Source: Calothrix sp. PCC 7507
GTDB taxonomy: Bacteria; Cyanobacteriota; Cyanobacteriia; Cyanobacteriales; Nostocaceae
Direction: 5' to 3'
DNA length: 64,000 bases
Assembly (NCBI RefSeq): GCF_000316575.1
Contig: NC_019682.1
Coordinates: 744,001-808,000 of the forward strand
The translations under genes were made by a program, and so were the position numbers. A model generated the notes under the pieces. It was given only the letters and a program-made list of their open reading frames with translations, was not told the DNA's origin and ran no database searches. Every line of letters begins with the position of its first letter. The stretch's first letter is position 1. Below, piece after piece: positions 25,916 to 28,178 of this stretch.

Positions 25916-26241
25916 ATAACCTTTTAGTATAGTGTGCAAACCATGCACCTTAAAATACTACATTTTGCAGTGCGGAATATGGACTGCAACAATCTAATTA
26001 CCTCTACGGATATAGCGTTTCTCACTCCAGTAAGGTACGGTATAAAATAATTAAACGCAGATAAACGCAGATAAACGCAGATAAATTTGTACTTCAGTAG
26101 CCTAGGAAAGGCTATACAGTCATTGACTTATCAACACTTGTCGTTTAATTATAGCTTTACTACTCTTCAAGTCGATTTGATCGCAGTCGCAATCTCTGCA
26201 ATGAGAGCTAGAAACAGGTGTAGCCAATTATATTTATCTTT

Positions 26242-26592
26242 TTACCAATTTTTATCCATCAGAGATTCAAATTCGGCTTTTAAAGCTTTGATATCTGCGA
26301 TTCTTGCCACTAGTAAATTATCCTGACCGGCATCATTTAAGCGTAATTTCCAATAACTAATACTTTCTGAGTTATCCAACCAAAACTGAACTACAGTATC
26401 TACTACTTGATCCAAATTCCAACCCCATTTTGCTGGGACTATTTCCACAGATTTGATGAATGCATCTAGTGTGCAAGTATGAGTACTCAAGTATTCCACT
26501 CCTTGATGTTGTGGTTGATTTATACTTTGCTGTTGGTGATTAAAAAAGTTCAAAACTGGGGATATTCCTACAATGTCAAATGTGTATTTCAT
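26242..26592 (-). CDS. Conserved hypothetical protein (116 aa)
   Basis: Start ATG 26592 has a good GGAGG 6 bases upstream. The protein is soluble, with STHTCTLDAFIKSVEIVPAK in the middle and a helical C-terminal half ending in a Glu/Lys-rich segment; no named family recognised. The orphan CIRCE element at 26730-26756 lies about 140 bases upstream on the sense side, so heat-shock control is possible but not shown. No operon partner: the next leftward gene is the LpxB-related one 330 bases away. Confidence 0.6.
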   Translation of the reverse strand: MKYTFDIVGISPVLNFFNHQQQSINQPQHQGVEYLSTHTCTLDAFIKSVEIVPAKWGWNLDQVVDTVVQFWLDNSESISYWKLRLNDAGQDNLLVARIADIKALKAEFESLMDKNW

Positions 26593-26729
26593 ACCAGTCC
26601 TCCAATTGTTAATCGGTTGTATATCAGGTTGGTTTTATAGAAAAGTTACCTGGGAAAAACTCCTGGGATTCGATTTGAAAAAAGTAGGGCGATCGCACAT
26701 CGCGATAGGTGTTTAAGCTCTGTTGAAAA

Positions 26730-26756
26730 TTAGCACTTGCGACCTATGAGTGCTAA
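26730..26756. promoter_or_regulatory. CIRCE heat-shock operator (HrcA site)
   Basis: TTAGCACTT (26730-26738), nine bases, GAGTGCTAA (26748-26756). This is the canonical TTAGCACTC-N9-GAGTGCTAA arrangement with one change in the left arm; symmetry extends three bases on either side (AAA / TTT). HrcA binds CIRCE to repress groESL and groEL2 in cyanobacteria. Neither chaperonin gene is in the window. A purine tract (TCAGGAGAATAA, about 26804-26815) follows on the plus strand without any start codon in the usual place. Confidence 0.85.
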
Positions 26757-27050
26757 TTTTGATTCAATTGTGTGATGTATTATTAGATAGTTTCAGGCAT
26801 TATATCAGGAGAATAAATTATTTTTAATATTTTTTTTAACTATGGTTAATGATTGCCAGTATCAACTAGAGCCAGGGCGAATGGAATTCACGGCTACACA
26901 GACAAAGTCCGCCTCCGCGGACTCACAATAAATTAAGGTTTTTAACCCACGGAGGCGGTCACTGAGCTTGTCGAAGTGTGGGTTTTGTTTATGTAGTTGC
27001 GGTTTCTAACCGCCGATTTCACTACGCCCCTACGGTGAAATGAAGAGGTT
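26757..27050. repeat. Interspersed-repeat region after the CIRCE
   Basis: GAATGGAATTCACGGCTACACA and CAAAGTCCGCCTCCGCGGACT (from about 26878), with reverse-complement parts CGGAGGCGGTC...GTGTGGG and GTAGTTGCGGTTTCTAACCGCC downstream, form a palindromic repeat of the kind dispersed in Nostoc genomes. ACTGAGCTTGTCGAAG (near 26960) belongs to the family also present at 56960 and 58725. No gene. Confidence 0.5.
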
Positions 27051-28178
27051 TTAAACTTTAATAAACCAGCGTTGTCGATACATGAAGACGCCGACTAATA
27101 ACCAGAACAGAACGGTGACGATGCCAAATAAGAGCGAACCATTGAACGTACCCGCCCAAGATGCGAAAACATTTTGATAAATCCAATTGTAAGTACTGGG
27201 TGCAGTTTCTCCAGTGCCGATATTGGTTTTAGCTAAAACTTTAATTAGCAAGACAGAAGCAACAAAAAGAGCGATCGCATTTAGTCCCATAATTTCAAAA
27301 GGCTTACTCCAACGTCGGATCAGCCGCACTTCGATCAGTTCGTAGCAAGCAGCTAGCAGCAACAAAGCCCAACCACTGCTAAAAACAACATAAGAACTCG
27401 TCCACAACTTTTTGTTAATGGGAAATGTCCACCCCCAAGCCCAACCAATAATTAAGCAACCAATGCCAAATAATGCTAATCCTATACTTGTGCGCGATCT
27501 CACTGGTTGCGATCGTATCCACAATCCTGCAAAGTATCCAGCCAGGACGCTAACTATAGCGGGAATAGTGCTAAACAGTCCCTCTGGATCTCCCATAAAG
27601 TTAAATTTATCCCCCTTATATAGATGCGCTTTGGGTATAATCAAGCGGTCAATATAAGCCCCTAAATTGCCTTCCCGTGTCAGAACTCCCGCACCATGAC
27701 CGGGAACTGGTAGATACATCATCGTCAACCAGTAACCAATGAGTAACACTGCAGCCAGTATCCATTGTCCTTTACGTGGTAGGTTGAGAACTGTAACAGA
27801 GGCGACTAAATAGCTCAAGCTAATCCGCTGCAACACTCCCATCAAGCGAATGCTACTTAAGTCAAAAGTCCACACACCTTTATTCCAAAAACCGTTGAGT
27901 AATAAACCCAACGCCAACAGAATTGCGGCGCGGCGTAAAATCCGCCAATAAACAGAAGAATTAGGTTTATTACCTTCGGTATACTTTGACAAAGAGAAAG
28001 TCATTGCTACACCGACAATGAATAGAAAGAAGGGAAATACTAAGTCCGTGGGTGTACAGCCGTTCCATTCAGCATGGTCTAAAAGCGGATATTTATCATC
28101 CGCGACTCCCACCATATTGACGAGAATCATAGCAGCGATTGTGATGCCGCGAAAAACATCAAGAGAAGTCAGGCGCAT
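27051..28178 (-). CDS. Multi-pass acyltransferase-like protein (DUF5009/HGSNAT type)
   Basis: 375 residues with about ten membrane helices. The start LTSLDVFRGITIAAMILVNM and the first-loop LVFPFFLFIVGVAMTFSL are typical of the heparan-alpha-glucosaminide N-acetyltransferase / YeiB group (DUF5009, COG4299), which carries acetyl groups across a membrane to sugar acceptors. The acceptor in bacteria is not known; exopolysaccharide or cell-wall sugar is plausible. Sits in the plasma membrane. Stand-alone gene. Confidence 0.85.
   Translation of the reverse strand: MRLTSLDVFRGITIAAMILVNMVGVADDKYPLLDHAEWNGCTPTDLVFPFFLFIVGVAMTFSLSKYTEGNKPNSSVYWRILRRAAILLALGLLLNGFWNKGVWTFDLSSIRLMGVLQRISLSYLVASVTVLNLPRKGQWILAAVLLIGYWLTMMYLPVPGHGAGVLTREGNLGAYIDRLIIPKAHLYKGDKFNFMGDPEGLFSTIPAIVSVLAGYFAGLWIRSQPVRSRTSIGLALFGIGCLIIGWAWGWTFPINKKLWTSSYVVFSSGWALLLLAACYELIEVRLIRRWSKPFEIMGLNAIALFVASVLLIKVLAKTNIGTGETAPSTYNWIYQNVFASWAGTFNGSLLFGIVTVLFWLLVGVFMYRQRWFIKV

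Follow-up and report, generated by a model that had tools for sequence, protein, structure and literature searches.

A CIRCE element ahead of an uncharacterised 116-aa gene in Calothrix sp. PCC 7507, very probably a third HrcA target in Nostocaceae

CIRCE elements are best known from groE loci, and a CIRCE that stands apart from any chaperonin gene therefore raises the question of what it controls. Such an element occurs at positions 26730-26756 of the window analysed here, a 64,000-nucleotide stretch of the genome of Calothrix sp. PCC 7507. The initial annotation of this DNA described it as an orphan HrcA operator and offered two explanations, namely that a chaperonin locus had been lost from this place, or that an uncharacterised 116-aa gene nearby is a new HrcA target. 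Control of groESL and groEL2 by CIRCE and HrcA in cyanobacteria (Synechocystis, Nostoc/Anabaena) has been reviewed (PMC7760821, PMC5381637). The publications consulted tie cyanobacterial CIRCE elements to groE genes, and the 116-aa gene would be a third target, family-wide; a search of the open-access literature, with subscription papers and supplements outside its range, found no paper naming this gene as a CIRCE target. The analysis presented here argues that the element is no orphan once genes other than chaperonins are considered, and that it is probably (at a probability of about 0.87, judged from sequence comparison) a working HrcA operator of the 116-aa gene.

The dyad, its leader and the groE loci of the same genome

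The dyad at 26730-26756 has the form TTAGCACTT-N9-GAGTGCTAA (plus-strand letters TTAGCACTTGCGACCTATGAGTGCTAA). It departs from the CIRCE consensus, TTAGCACTC-N9-GAGTGCTAA, at one of the 18 fixed bases and matches the TTAGCACT-N11-AGTGCTAA core pattern with no mismatch, which bears out the near-perfect dyad first described. Read on the minus strand, in the direction of the 116-aa gene, the operator is TTAGCACTC-ATAGGTCGC-AAGTGCTAA. The extended symmetry noted at the outset is also present, but it covers four bases on each side (AAAA/TTTT, at 26726-26729 and 26757-26760) rather than three. No other CIRCE match with three or fewer mismatches occurs in the window, and shuffled sequences average 0.03 matches at the same leniency.

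The gap that holds the CIRCE and the distance of about 140 bases to the 116-aa gene are as first described: the gap is 458 bp, from the start of the 116-aa gene (26242-26592, minus strand; the proposed HrcA target) at 26592 to the end of the next gene at 27051, and 137 nt separate the CIRCE from the ATG. The next gene is NagX-like (27051-28178, minus strand), with a match to NCBIfam NF046061 that falls below the cut-off of that model. Read with the 116-aa gene, the order of elements is a promoter-like stretch, about 22 bp, the CIRCE, a leader of about 137 nt, GGAGGA and the ATG. The promoter-like region (26779-26804, minus strand) was recognised by pattern match and includes TATAAT (26804-26799), GAAACT (26794-26789) and AATAAT (26784-26779), the last of which ends 22 bp from the CIRCE. 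A consensus promoter scan gave promoter-like sites that were no more numerous than in shuffles, and the promoter assignment therefore rests on the GAAACTcTTTAATAATACA stretch, which is conserved in single-site relatives, and not on the scan. The leader (26593-26729, minus strand) is mostly kept in length among the single-site relatives, and it contains a Shine-Dalgarno-like GGAGGA (26598-26603, minus strand) that is retained as GGAgGAct in the leader alignment. The plus-strand AGGAGAA that had been likened to a ribosome-binding site does occur, at 26807-26813 and with no gene behind it, but it overlaps and complements the minus-strand promoter region (TTCTCCTGATATAAT) and is not a ribosome-binding site.

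The 7,023,215-bp (7.02 Mb) genome contains three sites that match TTAGCACT-N11-AGTGCTAA at zero mismatches: the one in the window, one before groES of the groESL operon and one before groEL2. CIRCE-like sites with two mismatches also occur elsewhere. The perfect CIRCEs lie 17 nt from the start of groES and 32 nt from that of groEL2, and both arms are intact in both operators. The genome carries only two groEL genes, at 1171797 and 5487159, both of them intact and both away from 26730-26756; the search for groEL2 in the rest of the genome that had been recommended thus located it, intact and with its own CIRCE 32 nt upstream. Neither groEL, groES nor a remnant of them was found adjoining the CIRCE of the window, and neither GroEL protein gave a significant match when searched against 26000-27100 (best E 0.33). 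A single hrcA gene is present (PF01628 match at G000:C1:3705211, G000 being the genome of the window; E 8.8e-59, in a stop-free open frame).

Conservation of the site with the 116-aa gene

Orthologues of the 116-aa gene are found in 134 of 145 sampled Nostocaceae genomes, raw counts of this kind being inflated by kinship among genomes, and they cover 53 of 56 genera; hrcA was found in 144 of the 145 genomes. Conservation of the dyad in relatives had been named as one of the points on which the initial annotation should stand or fall, and a CIRCE with at most three mismatches in 18 lies within 1 kb upstream at all 133 readable orthologous loci, mostly with a single mismatch. Only one of 402 shuffled upstream controls reached three or fewer mismatches, and the best CIRCE match in the 1 kb downstream of the orthologues had five to nine mismatches, never fewer. 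At single-site loci the distance from the CIRCE to the ATG is most often 133-142 nt, and the position of the CIRCE between the promoter-like stretch (a promoter inferred from sequence) and the start codon is conserved at all 133 loci. Among the 57 loci with a single dyad located 125-145 nt before the ATG, the commonest base has a mean share of 96% in the arms, compared with 51% in the nine-base spacer and 60-65% in the flanks. Near-invariant arms beside a variable spacer and variable flanks point to selection maintaining the site beyond what kinship alone would preserve.

The genes around the site are less constant. The window's neighbours, NagX and TIGR03492, recur at no other examined locus, while an EamA-like (EamA/DMT-like) transporter lies divergently across the shared intergenic region at 90 Nostocaceae loci and an FGGY-like carbohydrate kinase is the neighbour at 17 other loci, both identified by eye from sequence. 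An operon partner of the 116-aa gene was sought among the neighbours of the examined loci and none was found, the neighbours being variable. Since the neighbouring genes differ between loci, the CIRCE evidently travels with the 116-aa gene. The genome-wide tally points the same way: three or more strict CIRCEs occur in none of the 11 genomes that lack the gene and in 82 of the 134 that have it (hand counts from a table; Fisher p 6e-5, uncorrected for kinship). A coordinate check in seven genomes (G003, G033, G053, G087, G107, G131 and G132) showed that one of the three strict CIRCEs precedes the 116-aa orthologue. The same site ahead of the same gene in nearly every sampled Nostocaceae genome makes the 116-aa gene, very probably, the third HrcA target besides the two chaperonin operons, and strongly supports its original nomination as a candidate.

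Two or three dyads are present at 50 of the 133 loci, most often 43-46 bp apart (about 45 bp). Across the 133 loci the left arm is almost invariant and the right arm is commonly off consensus, position 19 being A where the consensus has G in 85 of the 133 proximal dyads, and position 21 having C in place of G in 46 of the 62 further dyads (the tandem copies). The departure of the right arm (A for G at position 19) suggests that the operator of the 116-aa gene binds HrcA more weakly than the groE operators do, with earlier or leakier derepression, and the tandem arrangements suggest that dyad number may compensate for a weaker operator in some lineages. Since the loci range naturally from one dyad to three and include weakened right arms, comparison among them can test the effect of operator strength and number. 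At one locus, L165, three identical CIRCE-like dyads (TTAGCAGTCAAGCCTTATAAGTGCTAA) with 57-bp spacing lie upstream of the gene at 1001-1327, an arrangement that has the look of an operator recently duplicated in tandem.

Beyond the Nostocaceae, a profile search detected the 116-aa family in 170 of 390 Cyanobacteriia genomes and 89 of 160 genera, so the gene, judged by these searches, is spread more widely than its CIRCE control. Only 12 of 68 non-Nostocaceae loci have a site clearly above the shuffled controls, which argues against HrcA control as an inherent property of the family. These 12 include two perfect CIRCEs (L188 and L251) as well as a set of variant dyads whose distance to the ATG is 75-99 nt. 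At L219, L222 and L228 the ATG of the orthologue is preceded, at a distance of about 90 nt, by variant dyads of which TTAGCAGTC-N9-ACTGCTTA is an example; they are either diverged CIRCEs or sites of another regulator.

A putative heat-inducible protein under HrcA control

HrcA represses at CIRCE, heat inactivates HrcA, and GroEL regenerates it (PMC7760821). Binding, repression and heat induction at 26730-26756 are inferred from this established behaviour of HrcA and CIRCE. Under normal conditions, HrcA bound to the CIRCE, just downstream of the likely promoter, would block initiation or early elongation. Under heat or light stress, HrcA activity would be lost and the 116-aa gene would be derepressed together with groESL and groEL2; as GroEL rises, HrcA would be reactivated and the operator closed again. 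On the best reading of the sequence data, the 116-aa gene codes for an HrcA-repressed, heat-inducible small protein that is uncharacterised.

The protein has a mass of 13.4 kDa and a pI of about 4.9, and among the residues that hardly vary are a CTLD motif (40-43), F70-W71, W81 and G89. It belongs to a cyanobacterial family with no Pfam or NCBIfam name: searches of both collections with 124 members gave no credible match, only scattered weak ones in one to five members. AlphaFold2 with 124 diverse sequences yielded a confident alpha/beta model (pLDDT 90.6, pTM 0.81), and a model from 58 close sequences had a pLDDT of 46. The predicted chain opens with a strand, a helix and a strand, is helical in its middle part and closes with a strand and a helix. 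Foldseek against the PDB gave a best E of 0.34 and no match with E below 0.001, a result that does not in itself make the fold new, and the best VIA-align scores (Z 4.2 to HutP, 4.0 to baculovirus p35) are both below a trustworthy level. The best sequence match to a solved chain is to E. coli YbaQ (PDB 2eby, an HTH-type regulator), a weak local likeness of about 60 residues (E 0.0005). A helix-turn-helix was sought in the 116-aa protein and no Pfam HTH match was found, the YbaQ profile match being weak; the predicted model differs from YbaQ in its mixed alpha/beta arrangement and has no significant Foldseek match in the PDB. The expectation is of a small acidic soluble stress protein, induced with the chaperonins and working alongside them.

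Compared with the CIRCEs of cyanobacterial groESL and groEL2, the proposed operator is alike in its dyad, its spacer length, the presence of hrcA in the genome and its place near a likely transcription start. It differs in that its proposed target codes for something other than a chaperonin, in the longer leader (137 nt versus 17 at groES and 32 at groEL2), and in that operators of the 116-aa gene usually have an off-consensus right arm and up to three dyads in tandem. HrcA also has non-chaperonin targets in other bacteria. The present case resembles those in extending the regulon past groE/dnaK and differs in the gene concerned, whose family was met here in cyanobacterial genomes, the set searched. 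The 116-aa gene is thus a new member of a regulon and not a new kind of system. A conserved third target with an unnamed protein would open a direct route to a new heat-shock protein of heterocyst formers, including Anabaena and Nostoc. A more speculative proposal, against which the odds are somewhat weighted, is that the 116-aa family could be an unrecognised part of the chaperonin-stress circuit, with a fold lacking a clear solved relative, controlled by HrcA throughout the Nostocaceae by way of an operator that is weakened and, in many lineages, present in several copies, and with a stress threshold that differs from that of groE.

Other explanations of the dyad

Four other explanations were weighed against an HrcA operator of the 116-aa gene. 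The one that survives best, though still improbable, is that a different repressor, recognising a related motif, uses the asymmetric dyads (those whose right arm is ACTGCTAA), at least among lineages with tandem dyads and outside the Nostocaceae. The variant arms are indeed consistent among tandem copies and at L219, L222 and L228, but the variant dyads often have near-perfect CIRCEs as regularly spaced neighbours and the same left arm as these, and weakened HrcA sites are the simpler explanation. Genome G013 (locus L159; a one-contig, complete-looking Nostocaceae genome) has no hrcA detectable by profile or protein search, and its sister G062 has one. Both keep the same three dyads, two of which are perfect CIRCEs in G013, the third being that of the 116-aa gene; the absence of hrcA from G013 cannot separate the explanations, because the groE-type sites are kept there too.

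It is quite unlikely that the operator mainly serves the divergent neighbour, commonly the EamA/DMT-like transporter in relatives, or both genes together. The transporter-like gene on the far side at 90 loci could be co-controlled there, but the genome of the window and others without that neighbour still keep the CIRCE, which lies downstream of a promoter-like stretch aimed at the 116-aa gene, and the extra dyads extend within the same leader. Equally unlikely is a hairpin in the mRNA leader (a thermometer, stabiliser or attenuator) in place of a protein-binding DNA site. In favour of a hairpin, transcription probably runs through the dyad, and the leader does contain tandem copies; however, the arms keep their sequence and not just their pairing, position 19 being mostly A opposite C9, and in the tandem copies the C at position 21 stands opposite C7, so that the pair is broken in those 46 of 62. 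Furthermore, no conserved RNA fold was found in the leader alignment, whose consensus fold is only about -2.6 kcal/mol, and an Rfam search gave no match above threshold, with one sub-threshold CRISPR-repeat match at 26901-26924; on these grounds an RNA thermometer or structured leader was rejected.

The idea that a chaperonin (groEL2) gene was lost or moved and left its operator behind, encouraged by the usual association of CIRCE with groE and by the repeat-bearing gap on the plus-strand side, was rejected and has a negligible probability, given the intact groESL and groEL2 with perfect CIRCEs of their own, the presence of hrcA, the lack of GroEL similarity near 26730-26756, and the near-invariant arms at 133 loci, where every readable relative has its CIRCE before the 116-aa gene and not, at the orthologous place, before a chaperonin. 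The dispersed repeats reported beside the CIRCE are real: an unstranded element of about 114 bp (26901-27014), which has 42 matches in the genome and contains the CRISPR-like Rfam match, lies between the CIRCE and the next gene, outside the regulatory unit. It occupies the gap where most relatives have another neighbour, and possibly marks a rearrangement breakpoint. On the other side, downstream of the 116-aa gene, a short tandem repeat at 26055-26084 consists of three copies of the 10-base unit ACGCAGATAA.
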